A stretch of 64,000 nt of DNA from Periplaneta americana. Taxonomy: Eukaryota > Arthropoda > Insecta > Blattodea > Blattidae. Shown here one piece after another: positions 2,502 to 14,500 of the stretch; within the stretch, counting starts at the first letter, position 1, and each line of letters starts with the position of its first letter. A model generated the notes under the pieces. It saw only the letters and a list, made by a program, of their open reading frames with translations, did no database searches and was not told where the DNA came from. The DNA is taken from assembly GCF_040183065.1 (NCBI RefSeq), contig NC_091125.1, positions 129,363,121 through 129,427,120 of the forward strand, given 5' to 3'. Position numbers and translations under genes: made by a program.

Positions 2502-5500
2502 CTGCAACAAAACAATGACATACCTGTATTCCTGTAACACTGGCTTATGCTGCAAACACAAAAGAAAAAAATAGCTTCTCCAAGCATTCTAGATTAAATT
2601 TTAAGGTATTCGTGCACTCTTGACATGAATATCTACATATTAATTAATAGTTTTCAAAATTTTACTGAGCTGACTATGGTTACAAAGAGACAGTTGTAAC
2701 GCCATAGAGAAAGGTGGAGGAATAAGAACGAGATAATTAAGTTATTATCTTATTAATCAGTCTTCTTCCTCAAATTCAGAATATCACTCATGGTACAAGT
2801 TATCTCTTCTTAATGGTGATTTTTCTTTTCAGTTCATGCTAGTTGGATCAAAGACAATCATTCCCGTGCAAAATGAAAGAAACTTGACAAGGAAGTCTGA
2901 AGAAATTAACAATGCAGTGACTTCTAAATAGAAGAGAATGCTCACAATTAAGGTTAGAATTGGATCATTATATAAGTAACATTGAAGAATGTGATCCCAA
3001 AACTCACTTAGTGCATTTGACCATTTTTTAAGCTTTATATACATATAACTGTATATGATTATGTCTGAGACCTCTATCTTTATATTTTAAGCTTTTTTTC
3101 TTCTAAATCAACTTCATTCCTTGTCTAAAAGTTTGTGTTATTGTGCACGTCACTTGCAAACTCGCCCAATCTGTAGACCAGTAGATAAAAAAACTAGCCC
3201 AGTCCTTTCATAAAAATGGACTGAACGCTCTTTGAAATCACACTCTTCTACTATACACCTTGATTGCACACTTTTAACACTTAAGATTAGGTAAGTTTGT
3301 TATGGAAACAACTTTCGTGTGTTAATGTGAAACCGTGGTGATAATTCACCTTAGTAAACTAGTTTCGGCTTGATTACTAGCCATCTTCAGATACTATTCA
3401 GCTGAAAATAGCTAAAAATCAAGCCGATATTAGTCAATGAAGGTAAACTATCATCACAGTTTCACAACAACACAGGAAAGTTGTTTCTATAACAAATATA
3501 CTAAATCTTAAATAAGACTAAAAAGCAACACACCAGAATAAGTATCTCATTTTAATTATTTTGAGTATGAAATAACGCACAATATACGGTATGGCAAAAT
3601 TTAATAAAAATGTACTTTGTGCAACATTAAAAGCATAACATTCCCATCTTTATCATATGGAAATGAAACTTGAAGCATTAAAAATCATCTCCTTTCTGTC
3701 CAGAGCTATAGGTACTTGTTACAAATATAGAATAATTCCAGAATTCATTCCTACTAGGTACATTCTTCTTCCAAATTTGTCGATATTTAGTTATGTGAGT
3801 TAATTGAAATAGGTGTAGCTTGGACTTTTTCCATCGCAAATATCACAACATGGTACTGTCATCTTTAGGTGAACAGAGAAGAAGTTAGGATATCCAACTT
3901 TTTGGGGATAGTTACACCTAAAGATAACAGATATGCGACATCTCATTGATTATTTGTAAAGATGAAAATGAATAGGCACAGGTAACATGTTCTTCGAACA
4001 CTTATGTTCATCTGGAGATTCAACCTTTGAAATATTTTTATAAGTAAGTGCTTCATCAGTAATTGAAAAAAACCCAAACAAAACTGATTTGTTTTCTCTC
4101 TTAAAAGTTGACACAATCGATTGCAATTCTCCTTCTATGATACCCATTATTTCTTTGCTTGCCGTATTTTATGATAAAGTATTTAATTTGAAATTTCTTT
4201 TATGAATATAATTTCAGTTCTGCACGTACAGTCAATTTTAGTAAATTAAGCATATTGTCTGTGATTCACTATCGTAATAACTTAAGAGTGGGTTCATATT
4301 CGGTGTTAAGAATTGGAATCGATTTAAACACATAGCTTAGCACTGGTGGCAATAGTCTATAAATTTCCATTCTAGCACATCTGTGAACTAAATGATAACG
4401 GTTATTTATAAGAAACGTTAAAGATTTTTATTCACATACTTTTTTCAGCACAAAAGAGATGACATCCAAAATAGTTTCTCTGTTTTTAGATTATAATACA
4501 GTGTGTCTGTGTGCGTGCGTGTATGTGTATGTGTGACTAATGGTGGAAGCAACCATACATATCTGCCACTTAATTTATAGACTTTCATTCATAGATTTCA
4601 TTTTACTTGCAATTAATTTTATAAAAATTACGTATATATTTCTGTTATAAACTCATTATGTAAAGGATTCTGGGGATGTTTTACTCATAACTACTTAATT
4701 TTTCTCCAATTAGTTGACTACAGTTATGTATGATCATAGTAACTTCTTATGTCTCATATCCTCCTCCTTTCTGATAATGTAGAGAAGAATGCGTTATAGA
4801 ATGGATCAAAGCTCAAAAGTGTGAAATTTATCTATTTGTTATTCCATAAGCTTAAGAAGTTATAAATGTAGTCTACATTAATTTTATTATTATTAAGAGT
4901 ATTGGATTGGACTCCGTCCATTTTTGGTAAAAAGAAGTAATGTAAAAAACTTCACAACATTTAGAAGTTGGACTGGCCTTCTATGCCCAAGGTTGCGGGT
5001 TCGATCCCGGGCCAGGTCGATGGCATTTAAGTGTGCGTAAATGTGACAGGCTCATGTCAGTAGATTTACTGGTATGTAAAAGAACTCCTGCGGGACAAAA
5101 TTCCGGCACATCCGGCGACGCTGATATAACCTCTGCAGTTGCGAGCGTCGTTAAATAAAAAAACATAACATAACATTTAGAAGTTGGATCTATTTTCGCC
5201 TTCCAACAAAAAGCAGGGCATGAAATAAATATCTTACTCATACCAGTCGTTACAAATGGCTAAATCCAAGTAACTGACAAAAAAAAAAAAAATTAAACTT
5301 TCGAATCATTGTGGATATTTTTAATACACGTATTTTTTTTCAGCAGTAATGGAAAAATTTTATTAAAACCTCTTCTAAATATTCAGTCTTTCTTTCTACC
5401 TCTTTAGAACAACACATGAATGATTGTTGATATTATAATAATAAATGTTATATATAATGTTTCATTTATTGAAGTCTCCTGAAGATATTTGATATATTTC

Positions 5501-8500
5501 AAATGGGGATATTTAAAACACATTGTGTCAAGCATCTCTCGACATAAATATTTACAAATAGATACTTAATCATTTCGAAGTTATTTTAAGAAAAGGAAAT
5601 AGGAAAGTCTAAAAATCACTTATATTGATTATTTCATTATTAGAAACCAACTTGTAAAAGAATTTCAGTATACAATAGGTAAGCAAATTGAAGCAACTAA
5701 AACAAGAAAAAAAAGTAAACGTTATTAGTAACTCATCTGACGAAGAATTACTTGTGGAAAGATATTTCTCGATATTCCTCTAGTACCAGTAATGAATCAG
5801 TTTCTAATTTCGAATATTTGTTTTATACCTCTGGCAAATGATGATGCATTTAAGTTAGATATCATCAGAGACAGTGTGTTTCTTTCTTGATTGCATTGAG
5901 GAAAAAACATCTGTTGATAAATGAAAATGAAAGTTTATTAAGCGTGTCGAAAGAAAGAAGTTATAGTGGTCTTATAACGACGTCAGTATGATTGATAATG
6001 AATTTAAAGAGAAAATATGTTGTCTGCGCTCGAAATTCAAATAAAAAATGAAATTTGTACAGGTTATACAAGTGTGCGTGCGTGCGTGCGTGCGTGCGTG
6101 TGTGTGTGCGCGCGCGTCTAATGCTCTGGATTTAACAATGAAGTCATCATCCTTCTTGCTTCCCAGTATTTTGATGGAAGGTCCACAAATGTCCTAAGAG
6201 TTTCACAATTAGCCAGATGTTCCATCTCTATGTCCTCTTCTCTGGTGCACAGTAAGCATTTAGGTGAATTCAGTACTCCAATACGATGGAGGTGTTTACT
6301 GAGGCAATCATGACCAGTAATCAACCTAAACATGGCCATGGCAGATTTTCGAGGTAGATCAGGAATTAATTTTGGAGGTTAACAAGTAGAATAAACAGAA
6401 GTATAGGTATTCCAGTATGAAGCTAGTGCTAGGCTGTATCAAGTCTCTCTAAATTGAGGAGGTTTGGTACAATTTGCAGATTTAAGTAATTTAAAATATG
6501 AATTACAATATTAGTAATTTTCTAATTAAAGTGCAATAATATACAGACGCCATTTATTAGAATCCTGTAAATACTATGTAGAGTGGAAGTGAAATAACCC
6601 TGCATATTTTCAGACCGAATAGCTCATGTTGTATGTAACAAAAAAGTGTAATACCGTATTGGTGGAAAGTTCATAGTTTTCTCAGAAAAGAATGTCTTTT
6701 TCCAAATGTTTAACATCTTATTCAGTAATTATTGTAAGTAGGACTGCGAATTTTGTCCATATCGATAGGAAATCTAATAAAGAATCATTTATTCCTCCGG
6801 TGTATTTCAATAGTGTGGACGGTTTTCGTGTAAATTTAATTTTAAAAATATTAATTTCAAGCCACTGAACAATGCAACCAGATTGCAACATTGCAGCCAG
6901 AACTTGAGGCCTGAGATACCGGTAGTTCACATACGTACAGAGACAGACCTGAGTTAGTTGACCTCTTACATCTGTATTACGAGAAGAAAGAGAAGTGTGT
7001 TAGATGAGATGTTGCCAGACTTCTGAAACTTTCAACTTAATTTTCTAATTAACCATGAATTTAATCACAAAATGTAACATAGGTTTTCAGTTCGTTTAAT
7101 TGTACCCTATCGCCCCTTTCAATCTGCAGGATTATTTTACTTTCACTCTGTATAATATAAAATATTGCTATTTCAAAAGTGTATGTAGGATATAGACTTC
7201 TAGGTTATGATCTGTGGTCAGGTGACCAGATAACACTAGATACCGTACTTAGTTTCTCCTGTATTTGATTGCTTAATACCTGTCTCATTAACCTTACTCG
7301 ATGGAATCAAAATTATGTTCACAATCGACATTGTATATGATTCACCTAAAATTGGATGGTGTTTGGGAAAAGGGAAAAAGACTTAACTTCCTTTACCCAA
7401 ACATTATCGAATTACTGAACTCTTCCAAAACTAAGTAAATACTCACTCTTAATACTTTTGAAATGCAGTGCAATTAGAGGACTGAGGTAGTTCTGCTGCC
7501 TTGTGAAGGGGTAGTAATATCCTGGGAATCCCTGGTGAGGAAAATATTCTATTTCTCCCTGATTCTCCTTGTCAGGTCTCTTCTCGCCTTCACAGCTCAC
7601 CCACACAGTATTCAGCTGCGAAACAAAACACAATGTAACTGATGAGTGCCTGCCACCTGAATGACATGATGCATACATAAGTATGATTATATGTGGTTAA
7701 CAACATTGTCTTGTGTGTAAAATTCCAAGTAGCACACATATTCCGCCATTTTTTTTTTTTTTTTTCCATCTCCATATTATCATCTGTAGGCTGTAATTTT
7801 CGAGTACTTATATCTTTGCTTATGAATCTTAAACTTCTCATCTTAGAATAAATTTCCTACCTCATTAGGACGTTTCTTCACCAATTCTGTAATACGCTTC
7901 CTCAAGTCATCTGGCATTTTATCTGGAAGTTCTTTCGCATTCTTGAAATATTCTGGTTCCCATTTAATTATCTGTAAAATGAAGTACATAATATATTATT
8001 AATATTTGCAACTTATCCACTACCTTTCAGGATCACATTCTTAGTATTGTTTCCCTCAGGATGAAAATGAAGTAACAGGTCATTTGATGTAGATTTACAG
8101 TACTGGTATGTAAGAAACCATGCCTCTGATTGGGAGGGCTCTTAATAACATTACAAATCATTTCTTCGTCTGCTTCATCCATTGCAGAAAAATGTCTGCA
8201 TGCACTGCTAGACTAATGTAATATATCTTTCACTGTGAGAATATATAATTTCTCATTCTACATTTTGCGGTTTCTCAACCATTATCATGTTACGAGTAAA
8301 ATTATTGTTTGATACCATAAATAGGATTAAATTAATAGAAATTTTGCCGAAAGATAATGTCCCCAATCAATTAATAACAACAATGTTTAATATTTTGTAA
8401 AGAAAACTACATCACAATACAAGTAAGAGATAAGATAAACTTTCCAAATGGAATGTTATAAATCAAGAAATACGTCAAGGATGTTGCTCCCTTATTATTT

Positions 8501-11500
8501 ATAATATTGTAAATTTTATTAGTTACAACAATGTAATTTATTCCTCACAACAATAATTCCTTTCTACAATTCGCCTTAAACGCTCTCGGCAACAATTGGA
8601 TCTTCACTCAACACCGTATTCGTTATAGCACTCCACCGACGACAATGACAATTTACTTGGACTAGTACGAACAACAATTAACTGTTAATCTTAACTAATA
8701 TTTACAAAGCACTATTTACAAATCAGAACTACCAGTTGTCAGTTCACAGTTCTTCTATCTCAGTCACTCGAGTTCACAGCATCTCGAACCACAGACCTCC
8801 AGAGACAGTTCACTGTACTCGAACTCGGGTCCCTCCAACTGCGGCCACTGCACTCGAACTCAGGTCCCTCCAACTGCGGTCCACTGCACTCGAACTCAGG
8901 CCTTCGGATGCTGACGCAGATGCGGACGCACACTCGAGTCGAACTCTGGCTTGCTTGCTCTGGCTTACTCACTGACGGAGTAACTGAAAACTCTGAAGAC
9001 TCTGTCTAGTTCGCTGGCGCCTGCTCTTTTATAGCAAAATCATAGTTGCGAGAACCTTCTACAGGTGTGTAGAGAATTATCTCAATATCTCTACATCGAC
9101 AGACGTCTGGAATAATCAGGAAGGTCGTTCCACATCCACTGCGTAGCAGCTGCGCGCGCAGACTCGTCGCGTGACGTAATACACCCTCTCTCCCTTCTCT
9201 CCACCGCGCGACGTCACTCAATGTTCCGTGGAGCCCGTGCGATCTGCTTTCTTGCGGGACGCTGGTCGTGAGTTCGATTCTCACGTCGCTGTCACATTGC
9301 CCCCTCCTTAGGGCTGCTCGTCCCGGGCAGTCCCTTGGTAGGCTGCTAATCGGTCCAGCGTTTGGGGTCCTCCGGCTGCTCCCTCCTTATGGTGGCGCCA
9401 CCCCATCCTTGGCTTGGCTGGGCAGCGATACTCGTACTGCGTGGGCGCCATCTTGCTCTTCCCCTTGGCCCTCCAAGGAGAGCTCGCTGGCCACGGGTTG
9501 GTCCTCGGCGTCCATCAGGAACACTTCATCCCGACCAAGACGGAGTATACGGCGCCGGACGTCCACCGTCGCATCGAGTAACCGCATGGCGTCGAGTCCT
9601 AGGACGACGTCCTCGGTGATGTTGGCGACGAACACCCACATCTCCAGTTTCCTCTTCCCCAAGGTCAGGTCCAGGAAGACCTCTCTCTGGATGGGCAAGC
9701 TCTCGCCTGAAGCAGTCCGTAGCTCGTATTGGCGCAGCGGCGTCCTCCCAGGTAGGCCCCGCACGACGTCTGGTCTGGCGATAGTGAGCATCGCCCCGGT
9801 GTCCACCAGTACTCTGCATGGACGGCCTTTTATCCGTCCTTCAGCAATCAGCCCATCGTCGCACCTTCTGTCGACCGGTTTCAGGACGAGCCGAGGGGAC
9901 GGTGATGATGGCGCCGACGTGCTCCTCCTAGCATCGGCCCCCTCTCTCTCCTGACTGTTGCCAGGTCGGTCGCAACTCCTCCGCAGGTGCCCAGGTTTAC
10001 CGCAGGACCAGCAGGTGGGCACCCGTCGTCTCCGTTGCTCAGGCGACTGTTGGTTTCTCTCAGTGTCAGCCACCTCTCTCTCCTGCCGGTGGCCGGAGCG
10101 GTCGCAGTCCCTCCTTAGGTGTCCCGGTCTCCCGCAGGACCAGCAGTTGGGCGTCCGTCGTCTCCGCCGCTCCGTTGACTGTTGGCGCTCCTCGACGTCG
10201 GCCACCTCTCTCTCCTGCCTGTGACCGGATCGGTCACAGTCCCTTCTCAGGTGTCCCGGTCTGCCGCAGGACCAGCAGGTGGGCGCCCGTCGTCTCCGCC
10301 GCTCCGTTGACTGCTGGCGCTCCTCGACGTCGGCCACCTCTCTCTCCTGCCTGTTGCCGGATTGGTCACAGTCCCTTCTCAAGTGTCCCGGTTTGCCACA
10401 GGACCAGCAGGTGGGCACCCGTCGTCTCCGCCGCTCCGTTGACTGCCGCTCAGGTGGCTTCGGTTGGCGCCCCCCAGCATCCGTCGCCGTGACGCTCCTG
10501 ATCCAGTGCGGTGCTGAGACTCCCGCCGCCGACTTGGCCGCCTCCATCCTGAGGGCCGCCGCCAGAGCTGCGTTGATGGTGCGATGCTCTGCCAAGAGTA
10601 GCTGTTGCTTTATTTCCGGGTCTCGAACTCCGCTGCCGAAGGTGTAGGCCGCCTCTCCAGCGATGAAGTCATTAGGTAGGCCCCTGAGCGCCTTATGGGC
10701 CAGTTGTTCCACCGCCATCGCGAATTCTTGCAGGGACTCGCCTGACTGTTGGACCCTCGTTTTTAGTTGGGTCCTAAATGCTGCAGCAAGTTGATGGTCA
10801 CCATAACGTCCCTCCAAGGCCGCCATTATCTCAGCGGCTGTCCCATCTTCTGGAACGCTGTGAAGAATCTCCGACGCCTGTCCCTGAAGCGCGGCCAGCA
10901 GCTGAGTAGTTTTCTCTGCTGGCGTCCACCCATTGTGCTCTGCGATGGCCTCGAACTGGCGACGGAATATCGCCCAAGACGTCGTACCGTCGAACTTTGG
11001 CGTCTTGACGTTGTGATGTCTGGCTGAGGGCGATGGTTCCACATGGCCACTACATGAGGTCCTCAATTCTGACGTCGATCTTTCCACGGCCCGTTGAACT
11101 TCCTCGGCAATTATCTGTTTCTGTTCTCTAGCCTGGCGATCCACCAACGCGAGAATGTGCTTGTTTTCCTCAGCGTGTTTATCCATCATCTCACTCGTCT
11201 TGTCCAGCAACTCGGTTGTCTGCTCTTGACGACGCTCGAGATCACGGATTTTGCCATCGAAATGGTCTACCTCCTGTCTCAATTCGGTTACTGTCTCGTT
11301 TATAGTTGTAAAATTCTTGTTTAGGTTGTCAAGATCGGCTTTGAGTTCGTCTTTCACGATGGCGACAATTCCATCTACGTGGGCCGAAACGCTTTCAATT
11401 TGCGAAGTGACGTCATCTTTCACTCCGCTTATGTCGCCTTTCACTTCACTTATATCGTTCTTGACCTCACTGATATGCTTGTTCATGTCGTTCATGTCGT

Positions 11501-14500
11501 CTTTCATTTCTGCTTTCATTTCCGCGATGGCTTGCAGGATCTGCTGTAGGTTCTCCATTGTCGATAATATCCCGATTCTGACACCAGTGTAAATTTTATT
11601 AGTTACAACAATGTAATTTATTCCTCACAACAATAATTCCTTTCTACAATTCGCCTTAAACGCTCTCGGCAACAATTGGATCTTCACTCAACACCGTATT
11701 CGTTATAGCACTCCACCGACGACAATGACAATTTACTTGGACTAGTACGAACAACAATTAACTGTTAATCTTAACTAATATTTACAAAGCACTATTTACA
11801 AATCAGAACTACCAGTTGTCAGTTCACAGTTCTTCTATCTCAGTCACTCGAGTTCACAGCATCTCGAACCACAGACCTCCAGAGACAGTTCACTGTACTC
11901 GAACTCGGGTCCCTCCAACTGCGGCCACTGCACTCGAACTCAGGTCCCTCCAACTGCGGTCCACTGCACTCGAACTCAGGCCTTCGGATGCTGACGCAGA
12001 TGCGGACGCACACTCGAGTCGAACTCTGGCTTGCTTGCTCTGGCTTACTCACTGACGGAGTAACTGAAAACTCTGAAGACTCTGTCTAGTTCGCTGGCGC
12101 CTGCTCTTTTATAGCAAAATCATAGTTGCGAGAACCTTCTACAGGTGTGTAGAGAATTATCTCAATATCTCTACATCGACAGACGTCTGGAATAATCAGG
12201 AAGGTCGTTCCACATCCACTGCGTAGCAGCTGCGCGCGCAGACTCGTCGCGTGACGTAATACACCCTCTCTCCCTTCTCTCCACCGCGCGACGTCACTCA
12301 ATGTTCCGTGGAGCCCGTGCGATCTGCTTTCTTGCGGGACGCTGGTCGTGAGTTCGATTCTCACGTCGCTGTCACAATATATATTAATGCTTTAGTAAGA
12401 GAATGGAAACAAAAACAACATGGCGGCATTTATATCAATAGACATTTAAATTTAGATATATTACAATTTGCAGATGGCATTATACTTCTGGCAAACTCAG
12501 AAAATGGACTACAACATTCAATAAGTCAACTTCAACTCCTTGCTGAAAAATATAATATGACAATTTCAACATCAAAAACTCAAGTTATGACGTTTAAGGG
12601 ATGAATTCCTGTTAGTACCAATGTATGTGTTTATAATAAACCTATTGAACAAGTTTCTTCATTTAAATATTTAGGATATCATGCCAGTTATGAAAATGAA
12701 ATAGACATATGTATCTGCTAAAATTTTAAATTATAACCGAGCAATGGCTGTCATCAATAAAGCATTTAAACCCTCAATAGTGCAGAAACATACGAGGATT
12801 AAAGCTTATATAACAGTGGCAAGACCAGTGTTAATTTATGGTTGTGAGGCCTAGACTTTGAGGGAAAGAGATAAAACCTGAATAGTAGCCAACGAGATGA
12901 AATTCCTGCGAAGAACAGCTGGCTGTACTAGATTAGACCGCAAGAGGAACGAAGATGTTCTTCAAGAGCTTGAAATATCTTCTATTTTGGATTACATCTA
13001 TAGTTACAGAACTGACTGGCAGTAACATGTTCACTGCATGAAAGGACTTGCATTCCTCGTCACATTTCTACCTACTGTCCAAGAGGGAAGAGAACACTAG
13101 GAAGACCTTTAAAGAGATGGCTGGAGACCATAATGGCACAGTCTACTATATACAGTCACGAGGGTGCTAGGGTGCTAGAAACAATAGACTGTGACGGTAC
13201 TATTTTGCATTGCCTGTAATGAGGCGATATTAGCAATCCTAGTGGTGAGCAACTATCTAATGTTTGCATATTTACTACGTATTGAGCTTCGCGATTGTAT
13301 ATAATAGACTGTGGTAATGGGCCATTAGACCCAATACTTGTTAGGACGATGATAATGATTTTTGTTTGTACAATAAGTGCAAGGTGTTGAAAAGTGAAAA
13401 AAAAAAAAAAAAAAGTAACTGAACATTGTATGGTAGTGGTGAAAGTATCACTGTAGGCCTACTGTATATCGGGAAGAGGTCCAAATTCGCTTCCATGTTG
13501 ATTTACAGACATTTTGTGAAATAAATGGTTTCGTTTTCTAGCAGTAAGTCCTCCAACAGGACAGGGCACCTCCACATCGGCAATGGTAATCTCACGTTCC
13601 TTGAGGAACTCTCTTTCTGAATAAAGTCATGTCAATGGGGTCTGCCTTTCTCCATCCTACTTCAAGATGTGTGATGCTATTCTCTGGGTTATGTTAAAGG
13701 AAGAATGTTTCAATCCAATACCACGTACTCTTCATGATCTTATAACTGCTGCAACTCCATATCAGTGTGATGCCATGGTTGTACACATCATTCACCGCAT
13801 TGAGTACGTAGTAAACAATGACGCCATGTGGAGCATGTAGTTGTGTAGGGTTGTCCAGATAAAGCTTTTGGGTTTGCTCTGGTTACTTTGAGCTTTAAGT
13901 AAATTTTCTTTTGCAACACTCCATGTAATGTATGTATGTATGTATGTATGTATGTATGTATGTATGTATGTATGTATGTATGTATGTATGTATGTATGTA
14001 TGTATATTTTAAGTCTCTTTATCCACAACATGTTCCATTGCTGAGTTGCAATATCACATGCTGAATATTTTCTTTACATGTTGCAGGAAGTTCTATTCAT
14101 TTTGTATGTACATTGTTTACTAAATCCTAAGTATTCGAATTGATTTTCCCGTTTCTAGAGTATTATTTTGACTTTAAAATCTTGTTCATCTCAAAATTTA
14201 AAGTATGTACAAATTTCTGAAAAAGTTTTGTGTACTTATTTGCTAGGTCAGAATTACTTACAGGCTAGTTTCCACCTGCTAACCTTATGTCATCCCTAAG
14301 TACTTGTCTTTGTTTTCTAAACAGTTCGCATTCCCAAAGTATATGATTGACTGTCTGTGGACTAATTTCACAGAGGCATGTTGGAAAAAAAAAAAAAATG
14401 GTTTATTTAACGAGGCTCACAACTGCAGAGGTTATATCAGCATCGCCGGTGTGCAGGAATTTTGTCCCGCAGGAGTTCTTTTACATGCCAGTAAATCTAC

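Follow-up and report, generated by a model that had tools for sequence, protein, structure and literature searches.

A 64,000-nucleotide stretch of the genome of the cockroach Periplaneta americana (contig NC_091125.1, positions 129,363,121 to 129,427,120; hereafter the window) carries on its minus strand, at 8508–12376, a long terminal repeat (LTR) retrotransposon that encodes Gag fused to a protease (PR) and lacks the rest of pol. We conclude that this Gag-PR element is very probably a young member of a pol-less lineage that derives from a Ty3/Gypsy family and depends on a helper. It shares LTRs, primer-binding site (PBS), polypurine tract (PPT) and capsid (CA) with a full-length family in the same genome; taken with the intactness of this helper, the youth of both lineages and the recombinants between them, this makes helper-dependent mobilization by far the likeliest explanation.

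The window copy has the anatomy of an LTR retrotransposon: LTRs, PBS, PPT and a short target duplication. Its 5′ LTR (11588–12376, minus strand) and 3′ LTR (8508–9296, minus strand) are each 789 bp long with TG...CA ends and agree at 789/789 bases, as the original prediction, made from the sequence of the window, had read them. Target-site duplications of ATAT (8504–8507 and 12377–12380, unstranded) stand on both sides. The PBS TGGTGTCAGAATCGGGA (11570–11586, minus strand), which we take to be tRNA-Leu-like, begins one base inside the 5′ LTR. At the other end, a PPT, TAAGGAGGGGGCAA (9297–9310, minus strand), adjoins the 3′ LTR. Between the LTRs lie 2291 bp, in line with an earlier estimate of 2.3 kb, most of them occupied by a single open reading frame (ORF) of 723 codons (9387–11558, minus strand), which is intact as claimed.

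The ORF combines a Gag of familiar design with a protease, all on the minus strand. From its start it encodes an N-terminal helix that is probably a coiled coil (11019–11558; from the structure model and the alignment of copies, among which its length varies), a capsid domain with a PNMA/Arc/Ty3-like fold (10473–11018; Pfam and the structure model), a nucleocapsid (NC) part with four CCHC zinc knuckles on 132-bp tandem units (9927–10472; repeat spacing 132, four zf-CCHC stretches) and a protease part with a DTGA active site that continues the Gag frame and is followed by a linker-derived tail (9390–9926). Pfam recognized zf-CCHC four times (3e-21) and an aspartyl protease (2.1e-7). No reverse transcriptase (RT) or integrase (IN) family stood among the 25 families listed of the 39 matched, which bears out the claim that pol is absent and leaves only the protease. 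In the PDB, the structure model, of modest confidence overall (mean pLDDT 61; 73–92 in the capsid blocks), matches the capsids of PNMA2 and dArc1 as well as the retropepsin-like domains of Ddi1. The closest protein match to the ORF is 93% identical and comes from P. americana.

Further copies throughout the genome share this layout. We searched the 3.23 Gb genome with a query composed of the LTR end, the PPT and the PR tail; the best 40 of 2923 first-look candidates, a figure that is not a copy number, were scored and are 98–100% identical. Twenty copies besides the window copy were fetched (L009–L028), giving 21 in all. The interiors of all 20 measure 1896–2735 bp, too short for pol, and the slice from PR to PPT is exactly 630 bp in 19/19 complete copies. 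Such a query disfavors pol-bearing copies by design, so this result alone is not proof that the family is without pol. The PPT reads AGGAGGG(G/A)GCAA in 21/21 copies. LTR pairs are free of mismatches in 9/19 copies and differ at six positions at most (gaps ignored; L021 and L028 set aside); within-pair length gaps measure 30 bases in L013 and 36 in L025. Matching 4-bp flanks of the form RTAT border 15 of the 21 copies, and the full ORF is kept in 14. The four tandem knuckles singled out in the original prediction are the commonest state (15/21) but not a universal one: three occur in 4 copies (including the truncated L028), five in 1 and six in 1, a range of 3 to 6.

Two of these copies, L010 and L011, lie on different chromosomes yet agree in the 8 bp flanking them on either side (gagtatat / atattgta), perhaps marking the same site of another repeat. 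Within the LTR, a block at about 8946–9196 and 12026–12276 (alignment columns 100–299 and beyond, counted from the 5′ end of the element) differs by 17–21% between copies, and columns 400–699 differ by less than 3%; the former block is a subtype-forming region whose subtypes also appear in helper LTRs. In public annotation, Gag ORFs of these elements (P0003, P0004, P0007–P0010) bear names unrelated to Gag, such as adventurous-gliding motility protein Z-like, fibronectin-binding protein PlpA-like and TATA element modulatory factor-like, and so give rise to false gene models.

The genome also contains a full-length partner that has this LTR together with pol, as the original prediction had implied. 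Using a distant Gag (P0015, 38% identical) as query, we scored the best 101 of 2737 candidates, whose open frames were mostly 386–495 aa, with a smaller group of about 680–821 aa, a few of intermediate length, and two that reach 1521 and 1685 aa. In each of the ten top loci fetched (L037–L046), the Gag frame has a single knuckle and ends just after NC, and PR, 87–88% identical to that of the window copy, opens a second frame that overlaps the first. This second frame runs on without interruption through the rest of the fetched piece in 7/10 loci. LTRs of nine loci match those of the window element over their full length at 86–98% identity, and the tenth matches partially at 92–94%. Capsid DNA is 93–97% identical between the window copy and the ten loci, all of which also share the LTR ends and PBS (one LTR partial).

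One helper, L044, was followed through pol to the start of its 3′ LTR (continuation L047) and encodes PR, RVT_1, RNase H (RH), an H2C2 zinc domain and the rve integrase core. Its pol is uninterrupted, by coordinates and by a 1203-aa open frame, and its 5′ LTR shows 0 differences from the first 489 bp of its 3′ LTR. The PR-RT-RH-IN order of Ty3/Gypsy (Metaviridae) is found in L044/L047 and not in the Gag-PR element, which is why we call the element a derivative. Among the best 64 of 3556 candidates for the helper pol stretch, 64/64 are stop-free and 57/64 carry the 1203-aa frame; with the L044 LTR pair, these counts describe a partner that is intact and was recently active. A 601-bp RT/RH stretch gave a top score common to 33 of 40 scored matches. 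Searching proteins broadly enough to admit a fused Gag-Pol returned only Periplaneta gene models without pol, a misleading outcome because the helper pol lies in another frame.

Other helper-like loci vary in arrangement. One helper copy, with Gag and pol matches, lies about 15 kb before the window. At C3:64859021, with pol at C3:64861356, the distance from capsid to pol is 2335 bp, against 2192 bp at C17:119961264; the surplus is about one knuckle unit, perhaps a helper with an extra knuckle. At C6:2170676 the Gag match lies in a 1685-aa open frame, possibly a fused Gag-Pol. At the PBS, GTGTCAG stands just inside the LTR in 20/21 Gag-PR copies and GGTGTCAG in 10/10 helper copies. Across the window copy (11570–11586), L009–L028 and L037–L046, the PBS takes various forms, among them GAATCGGGA, GAAGTGGGA and GAACCGGGA, as if more than one related tRNA had served for priming.

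Compared with the helper, the Gag-PR lineage is set apart by two deletions (RT-RH and IN), an in-frame Gag-PR fusion and extra knuckles. The window element is without RT and RNase H (about 1.7 kb; junction at about 9461–9471) and without integrase (about 1.2 kb; junction at about 9358–9365). Between the two junctions, near the end of the ORF, about 97 bp of the helper RNase H-integrase linker survive as a remnant (9365–9461, minus strand; element positions 2916–3012 against L047:730–827, 84.7%). Next to it lies a 3′ untranslated stretch common to the helper (9297–9358, minus strand; 99% including the LTR start), and the PPT side as a whole is 99.1% identical in the single helper read there (element positions 3019–3570 against L047:2050–2600). 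Gag and PR form one frame in the Gag-PR lineage and two in the helper. PR has diverged by about 12% between the families (synonymous differences per site, pS, 0.24; nonsynonymous, pN, 0.08), which makes the pol-less core old relative to the insertions.

The map of divergence divides the element into parts that appear to be exchanged with the helper (LTR, leader, much of the capsid) and parts that define the parasite (NC, PR, the deletions). We compared 19 Gag-PR copies with 9 helper copies (L021, L028 and L037 left out). An Fst-like index was 0.10 and 0.06 for the LTRs, 0.21 for leader and coil, 0.46 for CA, 0.91 for NC and 0.86 for PR, and columns fixed between the families numbered 0 and 0, 0, 5, 25 and 31 in the same order. 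The LTR nearest to that of the window copy is a helper LTR.

Regions of the element also vary independently of one another. Within the Gag-PR lineage (19 copies, L021 and L028 left out), LTR, coil, capsid and PR distances taken from anchored slices are uncorrelated (Mantel r from -0.14 to 0.11); odd and even columns within a region do correlate (LTR 0.97, coil 0.83, capsid 0.84, PR 0.31). Slices cut by offset, which misplace the capsid where knuckle number differs, lead to the same conclusion. The r2 between sites falls from 0.51 at less than 20 bp to 0.067 at 200–500 bp and lies at 0.067–0.078 beyond 200 bp, against an independence level of 0.056. A chimera on chromosome 10, L048 (C10:94822120–94822719), joins a two-knuckle NC of Gag-PR type (94.6%) to helper pol (98.7%) just beyond PR; the protease is missing and the whole is one long open frame of 1521 aa. 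At least five of the 40 best capsid matches adjoin one of 84 listed pol places, L048 among them. This pattern of exchange fits shared particles and template switching.

The Gag-PR ORF looks constrained. Among the 14 intact ORFs, pN/pS is 0.11 for the capsid, 0.30 for the coil, 0.32 for PR and 0.39 for NC, although restriction to intact ORFs favors low values. For PR the ratio is 0.31 among copies of the lineage and 0.32 when they are compared with the helper, and the PR stretch is free of stops in 28/28 copies (19 Gag-PR, 9 helper), a count made in the frame of the window copy with gapped codons omitted and therefore uninformative on frameshifts. Because the ORF looks constrained, the element probably gives Gag in addition to borrowing RT and IN, and is probably a semi-autonomous partner, not an inert passenger. 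The proposal that it is a parasite is therefore only half established.

We propose that Gag-PR RNA and Gag-PR protein enter particles together with helper Gag and frameshifted Gag-Pol. Helper RT would then copy the element RNA from a tRNA primer, and helper integrase would insert the product at RTAT sites. Because helper and parasite RNAs would share particles, template switching could exchange the LTRs and the 5′ half, with the core of NC, PR and deletions, which defines the pol-less state, staying private. Template switching in shared particles would also explain why the LTR pair of each copy matches although copies differ from one another, a pattern that conversion between integrated copies fails to explain. 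One extension of this model is conceivable but doubtful: the element would compete with its helper as a heritable counterpart of a defective-interfering genome. Its extra knuckles would favor packaging of Gag-PR RNA, a protease carried by all Gag molecules and not just by the frameshifted minority would alter particle maturation at the helper's expense, and the pair would form a co-evolving quasispecies that template switching keeps together.

Simpler accounts of the missing pol fail on the multi-copy result. The helper family exists and the element can be derived from it by deletions, as a one-off internal deletion of a full-length copy would require, and a pol segment might equally have been dropped in assembly. 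The prediction of other pol-less copies was borne out, however, and the same layout in 20/20 further copies, together with the 630-bp PR-tail slice in 19/19 complete copies, excludes a single deletion or an assembly gap; PR is also diverged from the helper by the 12% given above. Neither outcome that the original prediction had named as fatal, a unique deletion or assembly loss of pol, occurred, and we regard this explanation as refuted. The same verdict falls, for the window copy, on a domesticated host capsid gene family of the Arc/PNMA kind, which has practically no probability left: the capsid fold does match PNMA2 and dArc1, and gene predictors label such ORFs as host proteins, but the LTRs of this copy are identical, PBS, PPT and target duplications are present, and young copies are numerous and dispersed. 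More serious is the idea that the Gag-PR ORF is dead weight, an unused remnant moved wholly on helper Gag, like a terminal-repeat retrotransposon in miniature (TRIM) or a large retrotransposon derivative (LARD) that keeps an ORF. Seven of the 21 copies lack an intact full ORF, including L014 and L016 with 0 and 1 LTR mismatches; the ratio of nonsynonymous to synonymous variants does not differ significantly, at 1.00 for singletons and 0.79 for shared variants of the 14 intact ORFs (Fisher p 0.34); and the capsid constraint could be imported by recombination with the helper, in pN/pS values drawn from intact ORFs only. We nevertheless consider dead weight unlikely, as the NC-PR core that the helper does not share is itself constrained, with the PR ratios and stop-free PR frames described above and a slice length constant in 19/19 Gag-PR copies. 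Gene conversion between integrated copies, in place of co-packaging and template switching, could likewise yield the shared LTRs and 5′ half, and high copy number and high identity would allow it. It is quite improbable: the two LTRs of a copy differ by 0–6 mismatches (19/19 compared) while LTRs of different copies are up to 17% apart, and such agreement counts against conversion because one round of reverse transcription sets both LTRs, whereas conversion of one would not. The L048 junction, moreover, is a non-homologous parasite-to-helper join that removes PR.

Several observations weigh against helper-dependent mobilization with exchange, as does the lack of a significant difference between singletons and shared variants. 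The LTRs of the two families are slightly differentiated, the observed values being reached in 72 and 9 of 1000 label permutations and, in a separate test, in 85 of 2000. The LTR behaves as one linked block (its halves correlate at r 0.92), and PR, with few informative sites (odd/even r 0.31), offers a weak test of linkage. The helper set came from the Gag query P0015 and the Gag-PR set from the LTR-PPT-PR query, both as best-match lists, so the samples are differently biased. The helper pol frame is interrupted in three of the ten fetched loci (L037, L039 and L046), and L044 is the only helper read across pol to the 3′ LTR. Given the PR pS of 0.24, the Gag-PR core may also have come from another, unseen autonomous family and later taken the LTRs of the helper family.

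Helper-dependent elements that carry Gag are already known in plants. In wheat, RLG_Quinta is the non-autonomous, Gag-bearing partner of an autonomous Gypsy helper, RLG_Cereba (PMC11302176). According to the cited text, that pair resembles the cockroach pair in its shared LTR motifs, PBS and PPT, in the loss of RT and IN and in the recombination invoked, and differs in being a plant system that is centromere-directed and has a Gag strongly diverged from the helper's (PMC11302176). In the cockroach pair, capsid DNA is 93–97% identical (10 helper loci) and the divergent block is NC-PR. Plant TR-GAG elements are described as LTRs with a single Gag ORF, accompanied by a potentially autonomous element that resembles them and belongs to their subfamily, and new insertions are reported in Arabidopsis ddm1; the Arabidopsis example, of subfamily ATCOPIA63, is described as Gag only (PMC8704663). 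The likeness to TR-GAG drawn in the original prediction holds for the multi-copy lineage and is less clear for the ORF, which lacks RT and IN but keeps a protease fused to Gag, a feature that the cited account does not describe for TR-GAG. From the Arabidopsis example the cockroach element differs in this protease, whose active-site motif is present, in its insect host and in its amplified knuckles. Pol-less Athila elements of Arabidopsis comprise whole families without pol, with intact ORFs under negative selection and recombination between lineages; in the text cited, they differ from our element in being plant elements, some with env, defined by strongly diverged gag and LTRs (PMC2410132). 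The cockroach helper and parasite, by comparison, share LTR and capsid. In the harvester ant, PbTRIM is likewise a non-autonomous LTR element in an insect, but it is a TRIM, a miniature element, and the cited description of it makes no mention of a Gag ORF (PMC3532108).

Set beside the plant systems, the cockroach element belongs to an insect, keeps its protease in frame, has a knuckle array that is amplified and varies between copies, and shows a private core flanked by sequence common to both families. Our search for an insect Gag-PR/helper pair in the literature found none; it covered the best-ranked matches among open-licence papers and is weak evidence of absence. Because helper and parasite occur in one assembly, both young and both multi-copy, their sequences allow the rules of cross-mobilization to be read: which parts must be shared and which are free to diverge. 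Copies with different knuckle numbers form a natural series in which to ask whether the valency of NC matters for packaging.

A described structural RNA inside the element was considered and rejected, as Rfam gave 0 matches in 8400–12500 (E up to 1), and a scan of viral contigs found no relative. The start of each LTR holds GTGAGAATCGAACTCACGA (12346–12364 and 9266–9284), where Rfam has no match and which, we assume, resembles a tRNA T-arm read backwards. The sequence around the element (12308–12604 and 8420–8507) suggests that it was inserted in a decayed reverse transcriptase, presumably of non-LTR type, whose flanking frame includes FADGIILLA.

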